Shown: positions 1 to 47,686 of the stretch, one piece after another
Layout: the number at the start of each line of letters is the position of its first letter
Position numbering within the stretch: position 1 is the stretch's first letter
Assembly (NCBI RefSeq): GCF_018070575.1
Contig: NZ_JAGPXN010000002.1
Span: 236,131-300,130 of the forward strand
DNA from: Micromonospora sp. C31
GTDB taxonomy: Bacteria; Actinomycetota; Actinomycetes; Mycobacteriales; Micromonosporaceae
Length of the DNA stretch: 64,000 bases
Direction of reading: 5' to 3'
The notes under the pieces: model-generated
What the model saw: the letters and a program-made list of their open reading frames with translations, nothing else
What the model was told of the DNA's origin: nothing
Databases searched by the model: none
Translations under genes and position numbers: made by a program

Positions 1-60
1 CGTGACGGCGCTCGCCCCGGCGTGACGGCGCTCGCCCCGGCGTGACGGCGCCCGCCCCGG
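1..60. repeat. three tandem copies of a 20-bp unit
   Basis: Three back-to-back copies of cgtgacggcgctcgccccgg; the third differs by one base (cccgcc for ctcgcc). The array touches the window edge and may continue outside. No gene can be assigned to it. It lies just beyond the 3' end of the minus-strand PspC gene. Confidence 0.85.
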
Positions 61-38081: not shown

Positions 38082-40307
38082 ATGTCCCACGACCCGCGCC
38101 ACGAGCACCACGGCCCTCGGCACCTTGGCCCGGCACCGGCTGGACCACCCGCCGCCAGCCACGCGGCCAGGTCCCCCGGCCATGAGGAGCGTGCCGGCGC
38201 GGACGGGTCTGCCGGGCGCGCCCAGGGCTCCGCCGGGCACGACGAGCACGCCGGACATGGCGGCGGGGGGCACGACAAGCACGCCGGGCACGGCGGCGGG
38301 GGGCACGACAAGCACGCCGGGCACGACCCGGAGCAGTTCCGCCGCAAGTTCTGGCTGAGCCTGGCGCTGACCGTGCCGATCGTGCTGACCAGCGAGATGG
38401 TGATGGACTGGTTCGGCTACCGGCTGGAGTTCCCGGGCGTGGCGTGGGTCGGCCCGGTCCTCGGCACGGTCGTCTTCCTCTACGGCGGCTGGCCGTTCCT
38501 CCTCGGCGCGGTGCGGGAGGTGCGCGACCGGGCGCCGGGCATGATGCTGCTGATCGCGATGGCCATCACGGTGGCCTACGTCGCCTCGGCGGCGACCGCG
38601 CTGGGGGCCTTCGACCTGGACTTCTGGTGGGAGCTCGCGGCCCTGGTCACGATCATGCTGCTCGGGCACTGGCAGGAGATGAAGGCCATCGGGCAGGCGC
38701 AGGGCGCGCTGTCCGCACTGGCGGCGCTGCTGCCCGACGACGCCGAGCGGGTGACGGCGGACGGCGGGGTCGAGCCGGTGTCGGTGGCGGACCTGCGGGT
38801 CGACGACCTGGTGCTGGTCCGCCCCGGCGCGCGGGTGCCGGCCGACGGGCGGATCACCGAGGGCGCCGCCGAGCTGGACGAGTCCATGGTCACCGGCGAG
38901 TCGCGGCCGGTCTCCCGGGGCGTCGGGGACCGGGTGGTCGCCGGCACGGTGGCCACCGACGCGGCGGTCCGGGTGCGCGTCGAGGCGGTGGGCGAGGACA
39001 CCGCGCTGGCCGGCATCCAGCGCCTGGTGGCCCAGGCCCAGCAGTCCAGCGGTCGCGCGCAGGTGCTCGCCGACCGCTTCGCCGCCTGGCTGTTCTACGT
39101 CGCGACCGGGACGGCCCTGGCGACCCTGGTGACCTGGGCGGTGCTCGGCGACCTCGGTGGGGCCGTGGTGCGTACCGTCACCGTGCTCGTGATCGCCTGC
39201 CCGCACGCGCTCGGCCTGGCCATTCCGTTGGTGATCGCGCTTTCGACGGCCGTGGCGGCCAAGGGCGGCATCCTGGTCAAGGACCGGCTGGCGCTGGAGC
39301 GGATGCGCACGGTCGACGCGGTGCTGTTCGACAAGACCGGCACCCTGACCCGGGGCGAGCACGTGGTGTCGGGGGTGGCGGCCACGGGGGGCGGCAGCGA
39401 GGACGAGGTGCTCGCCCTGGCGGCGGCGGTGGAGGCGGACAGCGAGCATCCGCTGGCCCGGGCCATCGTGACCGCCTGGGCCGAGCGCGGCGTGGCGCGG
39501 CGGGCGACGGGGTTCCGCTCGCTGGCCGGGCGCGGCGTGCGCGCCGAGGTCGACGGCACGGCGTACGCCGTCGGGGGGCCCGCCCTGCTGCGCGAGCTGC
39601 ACGCGGAGGTGCCGGCCGACCTGACCGACCGGCAGGACGACTGGTCGCGCCGGGGCGCGGCGGTGCTGCACCTGCTGCGCCTCGACGGCGACGCGGCCTC
39701 CGTGCTCGGCGCCCTCGCGTTGGAGGACCAGGTCCGCCCCGAGGCTCGGGCGGCGATCGCCGAGCTGCGGCAGCAGGGCGTCGGCAAGATCGTGATGATC
39801 ACCGGGGACGCCCGGCCGGTCGCCGAGGCGGTCGCCGCCGACCTCGGCTTCCGCTCCGGCGTGGACGAGGTCTTCGCCGAGGTGCTGCCGGCCGACAAGG
39901 ACGAAGCCGTGGCCGACCTGCAACGGCGGGGGTTACGGGTGGCGATGGTCGGCGACGGGGTGAACGACGCCCCCGCCCTGGCCAGGGCCGACGTGGGCAT
40001 CGCCATCGGCGCCGGCACCGACGTGGCGATCGAGTCCGCCGGGGTGGTGCTCGCCTCGTCCGACCCGCGCGGCGTCACCGGCGTGATCCGGCTGTCCCGG
40101 GCCTCGTACCGCAAGATGATCCAGAACCTGGCCTGGGCGGCCGGCTACAACGTCGTCGCCCTTCCGCTGGCCGCGGGCGTGCTGGCGTGGGCCGGGGTGA
40201 CGCTCAGCCCGGCGGTCGGCGCGATCCTGATGTCCGCCTCGACGATCGTGGTGGCGCTCAACGCCCAGTTGCTGCGCGGCGTGCGCCTGCGCCCTCGGGA
40301 GGAGTGA
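38082..40307 (+). CDS. CopB-type heavy-metal P1B ATPase with His-rich N-terminus
   Basis: A 741-residue P-type ATPase. Its first 85 residues are His/Gly/Asp-rich with three near-identical units (the core GGGGHDKHAGHG). It has no HMA domain. The membrane ion site is IACPHALGLA (CPH, the CopB/P1B-3 class), the actuator MVTGESRPV, phosphorylation site DKTGTLTRG, nucleotide domain DSEHPLARAIV and hinge GDGVNDAPALARAD. CPH ATPases transport Cu(II) or Cu(I) outward. A CsoR-type box directly upstream ties it to the copper regulon 9 kb away. Confidence 0.94.
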   Translation: MSHDPRHEHHGPRHLGPAPAGPPAASHAARSPGHEERAGADGSAGRAQGSAGHDEHAGHGGGGHDKHAGHGGGGHDKHAGHDPEQFRRKFWLSLALTVPIVLTSEMVMDWFGYRLEFPGVAWVGPVLGTVVFLYGGWPFLLGAVREVRDRAPGMMLLIAMAITVAYVASAATALGAFDLDFWWELAALVTIMLLGHWQEMKAIGQAQGALSALAALLPDDAERVTADGGVEPVSVADLRVDDLVLVRPGARVPADGRITEGAAELDESMVTGESRPVSRGVGDRVVAGTVATDAAVRVRVEAVGEDTALAGIQRLVAQAQQSSGRAQVLADRFAAWLFYVATGTALATLVTWAVLGDLGGAVVRTVTVLVIACPHALGLAIPLVIALSTAVAAKGGILVKDRLALERMRTVDAVLFDKTGTLTRGEHVVSGVAATGGGSEDEVLALAAAVEADSEHPLARAIVTAWAERGVARRATGFRSLAGRGVRAEVDGTAYAVGGPALLRELHAEVPADLTDRQDDWSRRGAAVLHLLRLDGDAASVLGALALEDQVRPEARAAIAELRQQGVGKIVMITGDARPVAEAVAADLGFRSGVDEVFAEVLPADKDEAVADLQRRGLRVAMVGDGVNDAPALARADVGIAIGAGTDVAIESAGVVLASSDPRGVTGVIRLSRASYRKMIQNLAWAAGYNVVALPLAAGVLAWAGVTLSPAVGAILMSASTIVVALNAQLLRGVRLRPREE
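38228..38330 (+). repeat. in-frame tandem repeat encoding the His-rich metal-binding units of the CopB-like ATPase
   Basis: Units of 33 bp built around ggcacgacaagcacgccgg, repeated about three times without frame change; the last two copies are nearly identical at DNA level. Recent copy-number change is likely. Confidence 0.75.
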
Positions 40308-42050: not shown

Positions 42051-43652
42051 ATGGGTACGCGTGTGTCCAAGCGCGTGACGGCGGTGGCCGTGGCCGTCGC
42101 CGGCGTCCTCGCCCTGACCGCCTGCTCGTCGCCGACGACCACGTCGACGGGCGCGGGCGACGGCGGCACCCTCGTCGTGGCGACGGCGGGTGAGCCGGAC
42201 GCGCTGAACCCGGTGCTGAACTACGGGGTCGACGGCGGCTCCCTGATCTTCGACGGGCTGGTCGCCCGCGACGCCCGCAACGAACTGGTGCCGGCGCTGG
42301 CCCGGGAACTGCCCACCGTGTCGGCGGACGGCAGGACGATCACCGCGAAGCTGCGCGAGGGCGTGCTGTTCCACGACGGCAGCCCGTTCACGGCCCAGGA
42401 CGTGGTCTTCACCTACCAGGCGGTGCTGGACCCGAAGGTCGACTCCACGCTCCGCTCCGACCTGGACATGCTCGCCTCGGTCACCGCCCCCGACCCGTCG
42501 ACCGTGGTCTTCACCCTCAAGTACGCCTACGCGCCCTTTCCGCAGCGGCTGGCCCTCGGGATCGTGCCGGCCAAGGCGCTGACCGGGCAGGACATCAACA
42601 AGGCCGAGTTCAACCGCAAGCCGGTGGGCACCGGCCCGTACCGCGTGACGTCCTGGACCCCGGGCGACCGGCTCGTGCTCGCGGCCAACGACGGCTACTG
42701 GGGCGGCAGGCCCGCCAACGGCGGCGTGGTGGTGGCGTTCGTCGCCGACGACAACGTACGCGCGCAGCGGACACGGGCGGGGGAGTTCGACGCGGCGGAG
42801 CTGGCGCCGAAGCTGGCCGTCGGCTTCGACGGCCAGGCCGGCTACCGGGTGCAGCGGGTGCCCACCGCCGACTACCGGGGCGTGATGCTGCCGATGGGCA
42901 ACCCGGTCACCGCCGACCTCGCGGTGCGGCAGGCGCTGAACGCGGCGGTGGACCGTGCGGCGATGGTCACCGGCCTGCTGGGCGGGGCCGGCGAGCCGGC
43001 GTTCGGGCCGGTCCCGCCGACGTCGGAGTTCGCCGAGCCCTCGATCGTCGGCAAGCCGGCCGCCGACCCGGCCGCCGCGACCGCCGCCCTCGACGCCGCC
43101 GGCTGGAAGCCGGGCCCGGACGGGATCCGCGTCCGCGACGGCCGGCAGGCCGCGTTCGCGCTGATGTACCCGGCCACGGACAGCCTCCGCAAGGAACTCG
43201 CCCTCGCGGTCACCGCCGACGCGAAGAAGGTCGGCATCAAGATCACCCCCGAGGGCCTGACCTGGGACGCGATCACTCCCCGGATGAAGAGCGACGCGCT
43301 GGTGATGGGCTACGGCACCCCGTACGACCCGGACTTCGTCTCCTACAAGCTCTTCGGCTCCGCCTTCGCCGGCCAGGGCTTCTTCAACCCCGGCGGCTAC
43401 CGGTCGCCCGTGGTGGACAGGGCGTTGCAGGAGGGCCGCGCCAGCGCCGACCCGGCCGCCCGCAAGGCCGCGTACGCCACGTTCCAGAAGCAGCTCGCCA
43501 CCGACATGCCGTGGGTGTTCCTCACCTACCTCCAGCACACCTACGTGGTGAAGGACGGGCTCGCCGGGGTGACCCCGCGCGTGGAGCCGCACGAGCACGA
43601 CGTCGCCAACAGCCTCTGGTGGAACATCCACACCTGGACGAGGAAGTCGTGA
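42051..43652 (+). CDS. nikA: ABC importer substrate-binding lipoprotein, SBP_bac_5 family (nickel/peptide type)
   Basis: A 533-residue lipoprotein: lipobox LTAC near residue 25, then the family-5 binding fold (GGTLVVATAGEPDALNPVLN, REGVLFHDGSPFTAQDVVFT, FNRKPVGTGPYRVTSW). The family binds peptides, nickel chelates or other small solutes. A nickel role is inferred from the Nur-like box upstream and the five-gene Nik arrangement. The His-containing end (VEPHEHDVANSLWW) is noteworthy. The stop overlaps the next start (GTGA). Confidence 0.85.
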   Translation: MGTRVSKRVTAVAVAVAGVLALTACSSPTTTSTGAGDGGTLVVATAGEPDALNPVLNYGVDGGSLIFDGLVARDARNELVPALARELPTVSADGRTITAKLREGVLFHDGSPFTAQDVVFTYQAVLDPKVDSTLRSDLDMLASVTAPDPSTVVFTLKYAYAPFPQRLALGIVPAKALTGQDINKAEFNRKPVGTGPYRVTSWTPGDRLVLAANDGYWGGRPANGGVVVAFVADDNVRAQRTRAGEFDAAELAPKLAVGFDGQAGYRVQRVPTADYRGVMLPMGNPVTADLAVRQALNAAVDRAAMVTGLLGGAGEPAFGPVPPTSEFAEPSIVGKPAADPAAATAALDAAGWKPGPDGIRVRDGRQAAFALMYPATDSLRKELALAVTADAKKVGIKITPEGLTWDAITPRMKSDALVMGYGTPYDPDFVSYKLFGSAFAGQGFFNPGGYRSPVVDRALQEGRASADPAARKAAYATFQKQLATDMPWVFLTYLQHTYVVKDGLAGVTPRVEPHEHDVANSLWWNIHTWTRKS

Positions 43653-44692
43653 CGACACCCGCCCCGACAGCCGCGCCGGCACCGGCGGAGAGCACCCCCC
43701 GGCGCCGGTCGCGCCGGTTGGCGGGAGCCGGCGCGGTGGTCCGGCGGCGGCTGCTGGTGGCCGTGCCCATCCTCGCCGCGACCAGCGCCGGCATGTTCGC
43801 CCTCGGCGCGGCCTCGCCGATCGACCCCGCCCAGCAGTACGCGGGCGCGGCGGCGTTCACCACCACCGAGGAGAACCTCGCGCAGATCCGCGCCAACTGG
43901 GGCGTCGACGACCCGCTGCCGGTGCAGTACCTCCGCTGGGTGGGCAACCTGCTCCAGGGCGACCTGGGCTGGTCCACCAGCCGCCACGAACCGGTCACCT
44001 CCGTGCTCGCCGCCCGCGCCGGCTGGACCCTGCTGCTCGTGGGCGCGGCCCTCGCCCTCGTCCTGGTGGCGAGCCTGCTGCTGGGCACGCTGGCGGCGTA
44101 CCGGCGCGGCGGCTGGTTCGACCGGGCGCTGCGCGCCACCGCGTACGCCGTGCAGTCGATGCCGGTGTTCTGGATCGGGCTGGCCGCGATCGCCCTGTTC
44201 GCCCTCACCCTCGGGTGGCTGCCGGCGGGCGGGCTCACCGACATCACCGCCACCGGCACCGACCCCGCCGACGTGGCCCGGCACCTGATCCTGCCGGTGG
44301 GCGTGCTGGCAGTCGCCCAGCTGCCGTGGTTCGTGCTGTTCATCCGGGACGCCGTCGCCGACAGCCTCCGCGACGACCACGTCCTCGCCGCCCGGGCGCG
44401 GGGCCTGCCCGGCCGCACCGTCCTGTTCGGCCACGCCCTGCGCACGGCGTTGCTGCCGTTCCTCACCCTCGTCGGCACCCACCTGCCCGAACTCATCGGC
44501 GGGGCCGTCCTGGTGGAGACCGTGTTCTCCCTGCCCGGCCTCGGCGCGGTCACCGTCCAGGCCGCGCTGGGCAGCGACTTCCCGCTGCTGGCCGCCACGA
44601 CCCTCGCCACCACCGTCGTGGTGCTGGCCGCGAACCTGGGCACCGACCTCGCCTACGCCGCCGCCGATCCACGGGTACGCCTCGATGACTGA
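43649..44692 (+). CDS. nikB: ABC importer permease (NikB/DppB-like)
   Basis: A 347-residue permease with a Pro/Ala-rich 30-residue cytoplasmic start and six membrane helices. The EAA loop, which contacts the ATPases, is AARARGLPGRTVLFGHALRT. The conserved YLRWVGNLLQGDLGWS segment near residue 90 is typical of DppB/NikB. It overlaps the preceding and following genes, so expression is tightly coupled. Substrate assignment follows the operon. Confidence 0.88.
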   Translation: MTTPAPTAAPAPAESTPRRRSRRLAGAGAVVRRRLLVAVPILAATSAGMFALGAASPIDPAQQYAGAAAFTTTEENLAQIRANWGVDDPLPVQYLRWVGNLLQGDLGWSTSRHEPVTSVLAARAGWTLLLVGAALALVLVASLLLGTLAAYRRGGWFDRALRATAYAVQSMPVFWIGLAAIALFALTLGWLPAGGLTDITATGTDPADVARHLILPVGVLAVAQLPWFVLFIRDAVADSLRDDHVLAARARGLPGRTVLFGHALRTALLPFLTLVGTHLPELIGGAVLVETVFSLPGLGAVTVQAALGSDFPLLAATTLATTVVVLAANLGTDLAYAAADPRVRLDD

Positions 44693-45554
44693 CCTCGCCC
44701 TGCCCGTCCGGCTCCGGCGGTCGAAGCCGCGTACGGGTCGCGTCGGTGCCGCCGCCGCCTGGGCCGTGCTCGTCGGCGCGGGCCTGGCCTGCCTGCTCGC
44801 CCCCGTCCTCTGGCCGCTCGACGAGAGCGCCGTGGACCTGGCCCGCACCCGGCTAGCGCCCTCCTGGGCGCACCCGGCCGGCACCGACGACCTGGGCCGC
44901 GACGTGGCCCACCGCAGCCTGTACGGCCTGCGGGTCTCGCTGCTCGTCGGCGCGGTCGCCGCGCTCGTGGCCACCGTGATCGGTGGTCTCGTCGGCGCGG
45001 TGGCCGGCACCCTCGGCGGCTGGGTCGACCGCGTGCTGATGCGGGTGGTCGACACCATGGCGGCGCTGCCGCACCTGCTGCTGGGCATCTTCATCGTCGC
45101 GATGCTGCGCCCGAGCCTGGGCGCGGTGATCCTGTCGATCGGGCTGACGCACTGGCTCTCCACCGCCCGCATCGTCCGCTCGGAGCTGCTCAGCCTGCGC
45201 ACCCGACCGTTCATCGACGCCGCGATCTCCGGCGGCGCCAGCCGTACCCGGGTGATCACCCGGCATCTGCTGCCGCACGTGCTGCCCCGGCTGGCGCTGG
45301 CCACCACGCTGATGGTGCCGCACGCCGTCTGGCACGAGACCGCGCTGTCCTTCCTCGGCCTCGGCCTGCCCCCGCACCTGGCCTCGATCGGCAACATGAT
45401 CAACGATGGGCAACGGTCCCTGCTCACCGGCGCGTGGTGGGCCAGCATCGTGCCCGGCCTGCTCCTGGTCGTCGTCACGCTGGCCCTGGCCGCCCTCACC
45501 GGCCGCTGGCGCGACCGCCTCGACCCGCGCGTACGAGCGGAGCTGAACCTGTGA
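44685..45554 (+). CDS. nikC: ABC importer permease (NikC/DppC-like)
   Basis: A 289-residue permease with the N-terminal membrane helix and conserved HPAGTDDLGRDVAHRSLYGL typical of DppC/NikC, then five more helices. The EAA loop is DAAISGGASRTRVITRHLLP. It starts 8 bp inside the end of the nikB-like gene and ends overlapping the ATPase gene, giving a continuous translation unit. Confidence 0.9.
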   Translation: MTDLALPVRLRRSKPRTGRVGAAAAWAVLVGAGLACLLAPVLWPLDESAVDLARTRLAPSWAHPAGTDDLGRDVAHRSLYGLRVSLLVGAVAALVATVIGGLVGAVAGTLGGWVDRVLMRVVDTMAALPHLLLGIFIVAMLRPSLGAVILSIGLTHWLSTARIVRSELLSLRTRPFIDAAISGGASRTRVITRHLLPHVLPRLALATTLMVPHAVWHETALSFLGLGLPPHLASIGNMINDGQRSLLTGAWWASIVPGLLLVVVTLALAALTGRWRDRLDPRVRAELNL

Positions 45555-46645
45555 CCACCACCCGCCAGCCCACGCCCGTCCCGTCCGGCACCGGCACCGT
45601 CGCGCCGGCCGACTCCGGAACGGTCAACCGGGCCGGCACCGCCGCTCCGGCCGGCACCGCCGCTCCGGCCGGCACCGCCGGCCGGCCCGGCCTGCTGGAG
45701 GTCGACGGGCTGACCGTCCGCTTCCAGCTTCGCGACGCCGTGGTGCAGGCCGTCACCGACCTGAACCTGACCGTCCACGCGGGCGAACTGCTGGCGGTCG
45801 TCGGGGAGTCGGGCTGCGGCAAGTCGGTGCTCGCGCACGCCCTGCTCGGCCTGCTTCCGGGCAACGCCACTCTCACGGGCCACGCCCGCCTGCGTCGGCC
45901 CGCCGGGGAGCGGGTCGACCTGGTCGCCTCCTCCGAACGTCACCTCGCCCGCGCCGTACGCGGCCGGGCGGTCGGGCTGGTGCCGCAGAGTCCCGCCACC
46001 GCGCTGAACCCCGTACGCACCGGCCGACGGCTGCTGGAGGAGACCCTGCGCGCCCACGGGCGCACCCGGCGCGAGGCGCCCGCGGCGGCCGAGCGGGTCG
46101 CCGCCGACGTCGGTCTCGACCCCGCCGACCTCGACCGCTATCCCCACGAGCTCTCCGGCGGCATGGCCCAGCGCCTGGCCACCGCCCTCGCCCTCGCCCC
46201 CGACCCGCCGCTGCTGCTGGCCGACGAACCCACCACGGGCCTCGACCGGCCCCTGGTCGACCACACCCTCGACCTGCTGCGTCGCCGCTGCGACGCCGGC
46301 GGGGCCGTCCTGCTCATCACCCACGACCTGGCCGCCGCCCGCAGGGTCGCCGACACGGTCGCCGTCATGTACGCCAGCCGGATCGTGGAACGGCGGCCGA
46401 CGGCGGAGTTGTTCGCGGCGCCCGCCCACCCGTACACCGCCGGCCTGCTCGACGCCCTGCCCGAACGGGCCTTCCGGCCGGTCCCCGGCCACCCGCCGAT
46501 GCTCACCGACCTGCCACCCGGCTGCGCCTTCGCCCCGCGCTGCGAGCGCGCCACCGACGTCTGCCGCACCCCGCCCACGCCTCCGGCGGGCACGCCGGGA
46601 CGCGTCGCCTGCCACCACCCGCTGACCCTGGGAGCGCCGGCATGA
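45551..46645 (+). CDS. nikD: ABC importer ATPase (NikD/DppD-like)
   Basis: A 364-residue ATPase. Walker A is GESGCGKSV, signature HELSGGMAQRL, Walker B LLADEPTTGLD, switch ITHDLA. The C-terminal oligopeptide/dipeptide region includes HPYTAGLLDALP and the Cys-containing CAFAPRCERATDVC. The first 48 residues are a Thr/Pro/Ala-rich extension with a repeated AAPAGT, absent from typical NikD. Its stop lies in the first unit of the 26-bp repeat described separately. Confidence 0.92.
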   Translation: MTTTRQPTPVPSGTGTVAPADSGTVNRAGTAAPAGTAAPAGTAGRPGLLEVDGLTVRFQLRDAVVQAVTDLNLTVHAGELLAVVGESGCGKSVLAHALLGLLPGNATLTGHARLRRPAGERVDLVASSERHLARAVRGRAVGLVPQSPATALNPVRTGRRLLEETLRAHGRTRREAPAAAERVAADVGLDPADLDRYPHELSGGMAQRLATALALAPDPPLLLADEPTTGLDRPLVDHTLDLLRRRCDAGGAVLLITHDLAAARRVADTVAVMYASRIVERRPTAELFAAPAHPYTAGLLDALPERAFRPVPGHPPMLTDLPPGCAFAPRCERATDVCRTPPTPPAGTPGRVACHHPLTLGAPA

Positions 46646-46708
46646 CCAGCACCGCCGGAGCGCCGGCATGACCAGCACCGCCGGAGCGCCGGCATGACCA
46701 GCACCGCG
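46631..46708 (+). repeat. 26-bp unit in triplicate creating two chained nine-codon mini-ORFs
   Basis: Three copies of ggagcgccggcatgaccagc plus accgcc; only the last base of copy three differs. Each unit supplies GGAG, a 7-bp spacer and ATG. Because 26 is not divisible by three, ATG at 46642 opens MTSTAGAPA and stops at the TGA overlapping ATG 46668; the same peptide then runs to the TGA overlapping ATG 46694, the true nikE start. The nikD stop itself overlaps the first ATG. Ribosomes could thus pass through four stop-start junctions. Confidence 0.9.
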
Positions 46709-47365
46709 CTCGCGGCCCACGAGGTCGCCGTCTCGTACGGTGGCCGGCGCGTCCTCGACGGCGTCGACCTGCGCGTCGCCCCCGGCGAGACGGTCGGGCT
46801 GCGCGGGCCCTCGGGCAGCGGCAAGTCCACCCTGGCCCGGGTGCTGGCCCTGCTGCACGCCCCCGAGGCCGGGCACGTCACCCTCGACGGCCACCGGGTG
46901 GCGGGGGCCCGGCACCGGCTGCCCGCCGCCGTCCGTACGCGCGTCGCGATCCTGTTCCAGAGCCCCCGCGCCGCCACCGACCCCCGGCTGGGCCTCGCCG
47001 ACATCATCGCCGAACCACTCCGCGCCACCGGCACCCCCGAGGAGCGGGCGCGGGCCCGGGCGGCGGAGCTGGCCGACCTCGTCGGCCTCACGCCCGACCT
47101 GCTCACCCGCCGCCCGCACGCGGTCAGTGACGGGCAGCTGCAACGCGCCTGCCTCGCCCGCGCGCTCGTGCACCGGCCGGACTACCTGCTCTGCGACGAG
47201 GCCACCGCCATGCTGGACGCCTCCACCCAGGCGCACCTCGCGGCCGTCGTCACCGACTACCAACGGCAGCACGCCGCCGGGGTCCTGCTCATCACCCACG
47301 ACCCGGCGCTGATGGCCCGCTGGGCGACGCGGGTGGTCGACCTGCCGCCTCCGCCACAGTCCTGA
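46694..47365 (+). CDS. nikE: ABC importer ATPase (NikE/DppF-like)
   Basis: A 223-residue ATPase, shorter than typical NikE. Walker A is GPSGSGKST, Q-loop ILFQSPRAATDPR, the signature is the degenerate VSDGQLQRACLAR, Walker B LLCDEATAMLD, switch LITHDPAL. It lacks the C-terminal oligo_HPY region present in the NikD-like partner. The start is ATG 46694; the two earlier ATGs in the repeat are in other frames and stop after nine codons. It is last in the importer operon. Confidence 0.9.
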   Translation: MTSTALAAHEVAVSYGGRRVLDGVDLRVAPGETVGLRGPSGSGKSTLARVLALLHAPEAGHVTLDGHRVAGARHRLPAAVRTRVAILFQSPRAATDPRLGLADIIAEPLRATGTPEERARARAAELADLVGLTPDLLTRRPHAVSDGQLQRACLARALVHRPDYLLCDEATAMLDASTQAHLAAVVTDYQRQHAAGVLLITHDPALMARWATRVVDLPPPPQS

Positions 47366-47489
47366 CCGCCCGCACCGTCGGGCGTCCCGCACCGTCGGGC
47401 GTCCCGCACCGCCGGGCGCCCTCGGTCGGGTCGTCCCCGATGGTGTTCGTCACGTGACTTCCGGGCCGTCCGGCGGCTAGGGTGACGCT

Positions 47490-47645
47490 GCCGTGGTGTT
47501 CGGGAAGCCGGTGCAAGACCGGTGCGGCCCTCGCCACTGTGATCGGGAAGTTCGCGGCCCTCGTCGTAAGAGGTCACTGGGCGTCACACGCCTGGGAAGG
47601 CCGGCCACGGACGCACCTCCCGTCAGCCAGGAGACCGGCCACGGC
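47490..47645 (+). promoter_or_regulatory. cobalamin riboswitch
   Basis: Consensus parts in order: GGAAGCCGGTGCAAGACCGG, TGCGGCCC, CGCCACTGTGATCGGGAAG, GTCACTGGG, CCTGGGAAGGCCGG, and the B12 box AGCCAGGAGACCGGCC. The ends GCCGTGG (47490-47496) and CCACGGC (47639-47645) form P1. TAGGGT at 47478-47483 is a likely -10, placing the transcript start at the aptamer. The downstream gene starts 41 bp later. Cobalamin binding is expected to reduce expression of the importer. Confidence 0.95.
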
Positions 47646-47686
47646 ATTGCGATGACCCGTCCACGAGGTGTTGGAAGGCGGTCCCG

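Follow-up and report, generated by a model that had tools for sequence, protein, structure and literature searches.

How does a perfect tandem array come to lie exactly on the stop/start overlap of two importer ATPase genes, and does it alter the ratio in which the two ATPases are made? The question is raised by a 64,000-nucleotide stretch of the Micromonospora sp. C31 genome (contig NZ_JAGPXN010000002.1, positions 236,131 to 300,130; hereafter the window), in which a 26-bp unit stands three times between a nikD-like and a nikE-like gene. We consider it likely that the array arose by tandem duplication as a tolerated product of slippage, and that the short reading frames it creates form a relay by which the coupling of nikD and nikE is kept.

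The nikD-like gene (45551 to 46645, forward strand) matches OppD, DppD and NikD models and encodes an importer ATPase of the Opp/Dpp/Nik family; its start codon, which is our own choice, is a GTG that overlaps the stop of the upstream permease gene, and it ends with a TGA at 46643-46645. The nikE-like gene (46694 to 47365, forward strand), taken from the ORF list and profile models, encodes an importer ATPase of 223 aa in which a short MTSTA precedes a conserved LAAH block. Upstream in the same operon (42051 to 45554, forward strand) lie the genes for a substrate-binding protein (42051-43652) and two permeases (about 43655-44692 and 44685-45554). An identity as a NikABCDE nickel importer, at equivalog level, was rejected, given that all five products score below the curated NCBIfam cut-offs (NikA 190.4 vs 393, NikB 227.3 vs 447, NikC 189.7 vs 358.45, NikD 187.9 vs 318.7, NikE 157.7 vs 332.55). 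Because every NCBIfam model among the matches shown, OppD and DppD models included, scores under its curated cut-off, the importer is, as judged from its profile matches, Opp/Dpp/Nik-like, and “nickel” serves merely as a label. Downstream of the operon, a cobalamin riboswitch (47477-47657, 88.7 bits) precedes a further substrate-binding protein gene, the best match of which is TIGR03868 (F420-0 type), again under the cut-off (302.6 vs 392.4).

Direct reading places three mismatch-free copies of the 26-bp unit at 46631-46707, and Tandem Repeats Finder returns the same interval (period 26, 3.0 copies, 100% matches). Every unit is laid out as a GGAG, a 7-nt spacer and an ATGA, with GGAG 7 nt ahead of ATG in all three, so that a Shine-Dalgarno (SD) motif stands upstream of the downstream start, as in coupled gene pairs. 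A search of the window with the 25-mer GGAGCGCCGGCATGACCAGCACCGC, permitting up to 3 mismatches, gave exactly three hits, all of them perfect, and 100 dinucleotide shuffles gave none. A first-pass annotation of this DNA, which had described a triplicated unit with its own GGAG and ATG, is thus borne out by reading, by Tandem Repeats Finder and by the shuffles. Within unit 1 (46631-46656) the ATGA joins the nikD stop to the start of a first mini-ORF, the TGA at 46643-46645 sharing bases with the ATG at 46642-46644; within unit 2 (46657-46682) it joins the stop of mini-ORF 1 to the start of mini-ORF 2; and within unit 3 (46683-46707), which holds 25 of the 26 bases, it joins the stop of mini-ORF 2 to the nikE ATG, which begins at 46694 (all units on the forward strand). 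The base before the array copies is G at the first and C at the other two. Both mini-ORFs (46642-46671 and 46668-46697, forward strand; direct reading and chain script) comprise nine codons and a TGA and encode MTSTAGAPA, as previously annotated, and the chain of four-base overlaps from nikD through the two mini-ORFs to nikE is real, with agreeing coordinates. Among the listed matches to a 601-base junction query, only the window's own site spans the array (query 232-308), while the 31 others fall outside it, save for 3 bases of one.

The mini-ORF peptide is the start of NikE (MTSTA) followed by the end of NikD (GAPA), which is what a duplication of the junction must yield. Indeed, since the unit length of 26 leaves a remainder of 2 when divided by 3 and no in-frame stop interrupts the unit, the mini-ORFs are the automatic outcome of duplicating a stop/start overlap, and call for no separate invention. 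As a result of the duplications nikE now starts 48 nt past the nikD stop.

A DNA search of 160 genomes of the genus gave 53 with an alignable nikDE junction, this genome (G000) included; in one of the 53, G110 (locus L141), the contig starts about 146 nt ahead of the nikD end. Tracing the NikD frame from its conserved CHH motif, a script found the four-base overlap in 52 of the 53 (32 ATGA, 20 GTGA), and the remaining genome, G110, has an ATGA overlap read by eye at the contig edge; the nikD-nikE stop/start overlap is therefore conserved in all 53. Mini-ORFs number two in G000, one in G031 and none in the other 51 genomes, three of which carry a junction duplication that reads in frame into NikE. 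These are G104, with two copies at 27 bp, and G084, with units of 18, 18, 27 and 18 bp, both lacking a mini-ORF and extending the N-terminus of NikE in frame, and, in another part of the genus, G159, with a separate 27-bp in-frame duplication (GTGA) at the same junction. The comparison of unit number among relatives that the first-pass annotation had proposed gives one unit in the next outgroup, G077, two units and one mini-ORF in G031, and three units in G000, such that the array varies between species in the manner of a variable-number tandem repeat. One base distinguishes the two 26-bp units of G031 and none the three of G000, and the single unit of G077 already holds 25 of the 26 bases.

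On a tree of 4995 aligned columns with the array masked, (G077,((G000,G031)97,(G084,G104)75)92)100 with ultrafast bootstrap values, the distribution of units would most simply be explained by one duplication before the four-species group and a third copy in the G000 lineage. Under the same simplest history the relay form, of 26 bp, and the in-frame form, of 27 bp, would be set apart by a one-base length change, the grouping of G084 with G104 having a support of only 75, and further in-frame growth would have followed in G084. The earlier suggestion that the chain works at any copy number holds in that each 26-bp unit re-creates the overlap, yet it owes this solely to the unit length, 26 being 2 mod 3; in G104 (27 bp) and G084 (18/27 bp) the result is an in-frame NikE extension instead.

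Two further accounts of the array are addressed by these comparisons. Copy number might be wrong, the genome (6.45 Mb) being a draft of 84 contigs, and another, longer array, which lies at the window's left edge, has a run of N that may be a gap or a mask; but the array is just 77 bp, below the usual read length, and expanded junctions of a related kind are present in G031 and G084, each assembled as a single contig, and in G104 (5 contigs), which makes an assembly artefact very unlikely. It is still harder to credit a NikD-NikE fusion made by read-through of the nikD TGA, for which nikE would be in frame with exactly three units. The nikE ATG (46694) does lie 1260 nt, a multiple of 3, from the start of the nikD-frame ORF at 45434, and the nikD frame has no further stop between them, but this register exists only with three 26-bp units, not with the two of G031 or the one of G077, and is not conserved.

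The history that we favour would run as follows. A 26-bp stretch containing the SD motif and the ATGA of nikD/nikE would have been duplicated in tandem, most simply once in the ancestor of four close Micromonospora species and again in the G000 lineage, each added copy giving a mini-ORF of 9 codons that overlaps its neighbours by four bases on either side. On finishing nikD, a ribosome would re-initiate on mini-ORF 1, then on mini-ORF 2 and then on nikE, so that translational coupling would survive the 48-nt distance between the nikD stop and the nikE start. The slippage product would be tolerated and translation would remove frame-breaking lengths and leave in place the lengths that act as a relay (2 mod 3) or give an in-frame fusion (0 mod 3). 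The sequence, the states at orthologous junctions, the tree and the pattern of frames at other junctions of the genus are observed; use of the relay by ribosomes, and a near-neutral effect of the array on the NikD:NikE ratio, we infer.

In published E. coli reporter work, a +38-nt gap reduced re-initiation by 80-90% in two gene pairs and abolished it in a third; results at shorter gaps were more variable, with one pair re-initiating efficiently even at 14-15 nt, and coupling required no more of the upstream gene than its final 15 nt (PMC10666635). Because a gap of this size largely abolishes coupling in those reporters, the mini-ORFs probably maintain a coupling of nikD and nikE which the 48 nt of extra sequence would, for the most part, have broken. 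The gap would be bridged overlap by overlap, every mini-ORF having sufficient length and a start codon at its end. These distance results may not be transferable from E. coli to an actinobacterium. The nikD-nikE pair resembles the coupled overlapping pairs described in PMC6728339 and PMC10666635, with its four-base overlap in 53 of 53 genomes and an SD-like motif before the start, but differs in that the hand-over here would be needed three times in series, via two 9-codon mini-ORFs. A very short ORF that would act in cis on the next gene is also shared with uORFs (PMC12548453) and with the axe-txe minigene (PMC8708949), whereas the nikDE mini-ORFs owe their existence to tandem duplication and are linked in series behind an upstream gene.

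Each unit has its own GGAG, and nikE could consequently start de novo, without the relay. If every GGAG-ATG recruited ribosomes independently, the mini-ORFs would be incidental and the array would at most offer extra landing sites. The 7-nt spacing of GGAG and ATG in every unit is compatible with such initiation, which has been reported at the overlaps of some pairs (PMC6728339). A weak point is that in units 2 and 3 the GGAG sits within a possible GCCGG-AGCG-CCGGC hairpin, with a predicted -10.7 kcal/mol (nominally 30 C); SD-covering hairpins have been proposed, from folding, for coupled E. coli pairs (PMC6728339). The predicted cost of opening the nikE start is 14.5 kcal/mol here, compared with 8.1 in single-unit G077, but this accessibility argument is weak because four other single-unit junctions have costs of 11.8-14.8 kcal/mol. 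The frame bias of junction expansions, moreover, would be unexpected if initiation did not depend on the upstream frame, and we regard independent initiation as unlikely. The short hairpin possible in units 2 and 3 might alternatively belong to a regulatory structure between nikD and nikE, yet the 141-nt junction folds slightly worse than its shuffles (z +1.61), 192 of 200 of which fold at least as well, and we rejected RNA structure as the main explanation on the grounds that the whole-junction fold is no better than shuffles; such a device is highly improbable. No Rfam family matched the nikD-nikE junction at gathering thresholds, where only the downstream riboswitch was found.

Importers of this type are normally assumed to use their two ATPases one to one. 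The first-pass annotation had proposed that re-initiation lowers or buffers NikE, and that changes in unit number tune ATPase stoichiometry, and in its adaptive form this reading has each re-initiation step cutting NikE output, with unit number selected to set the NikD:NikE ratio. Sister species do differ in unit number (1, 2, 3), and re-initiation efficiency depends on the gene pair in the published reporters (PMC6728339, PMC10666635). A lowering or buffering of NikE is nonetheless unsupported, given that mini-ORFs occur in only 2 of the 53 genomes; the sister pair G084/G104 has an in-frame extension without a re-initiation step; and one-to-one use of the ATPases gives no obvious reason for tuning. 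Frame-compatible growth is expected from neutral slippage filtered by translation, and the tuning claim finds no support either. We consequently consider a selected rheostat unlikely. Against it we set tandem duplication with a retained relay, under which the array shares with other slippage length polymorphisms a perfect, short, head-to-tail repeat with a copy number that varies among relatives, but differs from them in that the lengths kept suit either of two frames, and not only multiples of three.

Tandem arrays as such are not unique to this junction, as their base rates indicate: with the period set to 10-60, a minimum of 2.7 copies, matches of 95% or more and indels excluded, 10 arrays were found in 800 kb of the same genome (1.25 per 100 kb) and 4 in the window (6.25 per 100 kb). 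Other repeats in the window include an 18-bp in-frame repeat (45631-45680, 2.8 copies, 100%) in the part of the nikD-like gene that encodes the N-terminal region, the length of which varies strongly among relatives; a 17-bp repeat (47369-47418, 2.9 copies) immediately 3' of the nikE-like stop; and a 33-bp repeat (38235-38325, 2.8 copies, 94%), the length of which is a multiple of three. A 20-bp array (GTGACGGCGCTCGCCCCGGC) at window positions 1-60 extends past the left window edge and has a run of N there; it contains GTGA and was considered as a second relay, and was rejected since it follows a gene stop, contains the run of N, and has no same-strand gene seen to start at its end.

Native duplications that copy an overlap junction almost exactly are rare. 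A scan of three genomes, 1.66 Mb in total, counted 219 direct four-base-overlap junctions at the script's coding thresholds, and 5 duplicated ones, three of which are alike at only 18-19 of 25 bases. A chain scan of 800 kb returned 79 direct, 19 one-step and 4 two-step cases at ATGA/GTGA sites, against 51, 11 and 0 at CTGA control sites, that is, 23 mini-ORF chains to 79 direct compared with 11 to 51. Four of the chains are made by copies of a dispersed element (see below), and once these are removed the ratios, 19 to 79 and 11 to 51, are alike, for which reason we claim no general excess; most mini-ORF chains in the count look like chance.

One of the five duplicated junctions lies between two genes which we take from sequence to be nirB and nirD (the name nuoJ-nuoK, used below, is likewise our own assignment). 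Among 30 loci, the best of 160 genomes searched, with states scored by eye, six (G000 included) have two ATGA exactly 38 nt apart around a 13-codon mini-ORF with four-base overlaps at both ends (L190 2001-2042; contig C1 of G000, 549374 onward), and in-frame duplications, of 30, 24 and 36 nt, are present at three more loci. The nirB stop was checked against the ORF list in G000 only; across the six loci the nirD N-terminus varies in length and the 38-nt spacing is constant. Taken together, the native expansions at the two junctions are eight in number (nikDE 26, 27, 18-bp units and 27; nirBD 38, 30, 24 and 36) and all are frame-compatible, with a chance of roughly (2/3)^8 = 0.04, which is modest; they are not all independent, nor are copies within arrays independent of one another. 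A possible third native relay was seen in a joined stretch of G056 (L356-L375, about 54522), where two [AG]TG starts 29 nt apart enclose a 10-codon mini-ORF with weak similarity (19/25).

The 800-kb chain scan also brought to light a repeated 59-bp sequence, GTGAGCGCGAGGAGTGAGCCGG..TTGCGAGCCCCGCAGTCGCGAACGGAGG and variants, with 60 matches in G000 (E up to 0.1). At E 1e-6 it occurs in all 61 Micromonospora genomes sampled, with 7-39 matches (15 candidates scored per genome); it was found in 45 of 121 family genomes sampled and 18 of 44 genera (7 candidates scored per genome), and in a class-wide sample 3 of 246 genomes matched, all of them Micromonospora (3 candidates scored per genome). The element starts with GTGA or ATGA, has an SD-like motif at its end and frequently forms tandem runs; at stop/start overlaps it encodes mini-ORFs of ~20 codons (consensus VSARSEPGLRAPQSRT) that relay into the next gene. 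Examples in G000 are C1:373801-373922 (minus strand), C9:123014-123305 (plus strand) and C1:784514-784632 (minus strand), among loci L221-L295, and the longest array among the G000 loci, on contig C9, has five units and five mini-ORFs. By eye there is no similarity between the 26-bp unit and the 59-bp element, none of whose 60 matches falls in the nikDE array, and we treat them as separate routes to the same architecture; the 59-bp element, different as it is, shows the same solution many times over.

We followed the reading frame through element arrays at 59 of the 60 matches of G000 and at the best 30 matches each of G056 and G127, counting those arrays whose first TGA ends an upstream coding frame (n = 47) and setting aside 11 places with no recognisable [AG]TGAG start (9, 1 and 1, not de-duplicated) and 17 arrays with a non-qualifying upstream frame, 15 of which also reach a coding ORF. 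A coding ORF is reached by 44 of the 47 (19/20 in G000, 14/14 in G056, 11/13 in G127), 37 via one or more mini-ORFs, joined by four-base overlaps and in one case also by a one-base overlap, and 7 directly in frame. After an in silico 1-nt deletion 17 of the 47 arrays still reach the next gene, and after a 1-nt insertion 36 do so, the insertion frequently converting a relay to a fusion. The distance to the next [AG]TGA, in 89 distinct long-form copies, is 2 mod 3 in 59, 0 in 22 and 1 in 1, with no next [AG]TGA found for the other 7.

At nuoJ-nuoK (L396-L425), 25 of 30 fetched loci could be placed, the 5 dropped being those in which the script mis-located nuoK. A direct four-base overlap is present at 15 empty loci and the other 10 are filled, 8 of them with lengths of 59, 62, 116, 119 or 173, all 2 mod 3. 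The remaining two, at 61 nt (1 mod 3), were scored as breaks; there the mini-ORF stops 8 nt inside nuoK and an overlap remains. The pattern of frames suggests that gene overlaps are insertion-tolerant sites, accepting DNA that relays or fuses.

Mycobacterial MIRUs (mycobacterial interspersed repetitive units) vary in tandem copy number. According to a 2025 review (PMC12548453), which refers to Supply et al. 1997, they insert at start codons, with an internal ORF that couples to the gene at -4 nt, and the insertion probably alters expression very little. The working principle of the relay is, by analogy, already known from these elements: the nikDE unit, too, is a repeat at a start codon with a small ORF overlapping its neighbouring gene by four bases. 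It differs from a MIRU, however, in occupying one genomic place, being neither dispersed nor mobile, and in being a duplication of a native site rather than an insertion into an empty start-codon site, as the outgroup G077 already has 25 of the 26 unit bases; we accordingly rejected the nikDE array as a MIRU, since it is neither dispersed nor inserted. The 59-bp element is a closer analogue and, likened to MIRUs by architecture alone, the better candidate for a MIRU-like family in Micromonosporaceae. Among the open-licence papers listed in literature searches we recognised no description of such a Micromonospora junction repeat or of the 59-bp element.

A broader reading, which we offer tentatively and hold to be doubtful, is that operon overlaps in Micromonosporaceae have been repeatedly expanded by translated relay units, with one to five serial steps setting downstream output, the units comprising the native duplications (nikD-nikE, nirB-nirD) and the MIRU-like 59-bp element in its runs of up to five in G000. 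The orthologous nikDE junctions with 0, 1 and 2 native mini-ORFs, together with these runs, form a natural titration series that bears on the processivity of termination-reinitiation and on whether step number alters subunit ratio. The interest of the nikDE case lies mainly in its having led to this large natural series of serial re-initiation junctions.

Codon-position variation within the element gives a non-synonymous to synonymous ratio of 0.32 per site, a signal that comes mainly from a few sites (codons 8, 9 and 16) and that we regard as weak. In G086, six adjacent element matches lie on contig C1 at about 4073385-4073736, with a spacing of ~60 nt between match positions, a run that exceeds any seen in G000.
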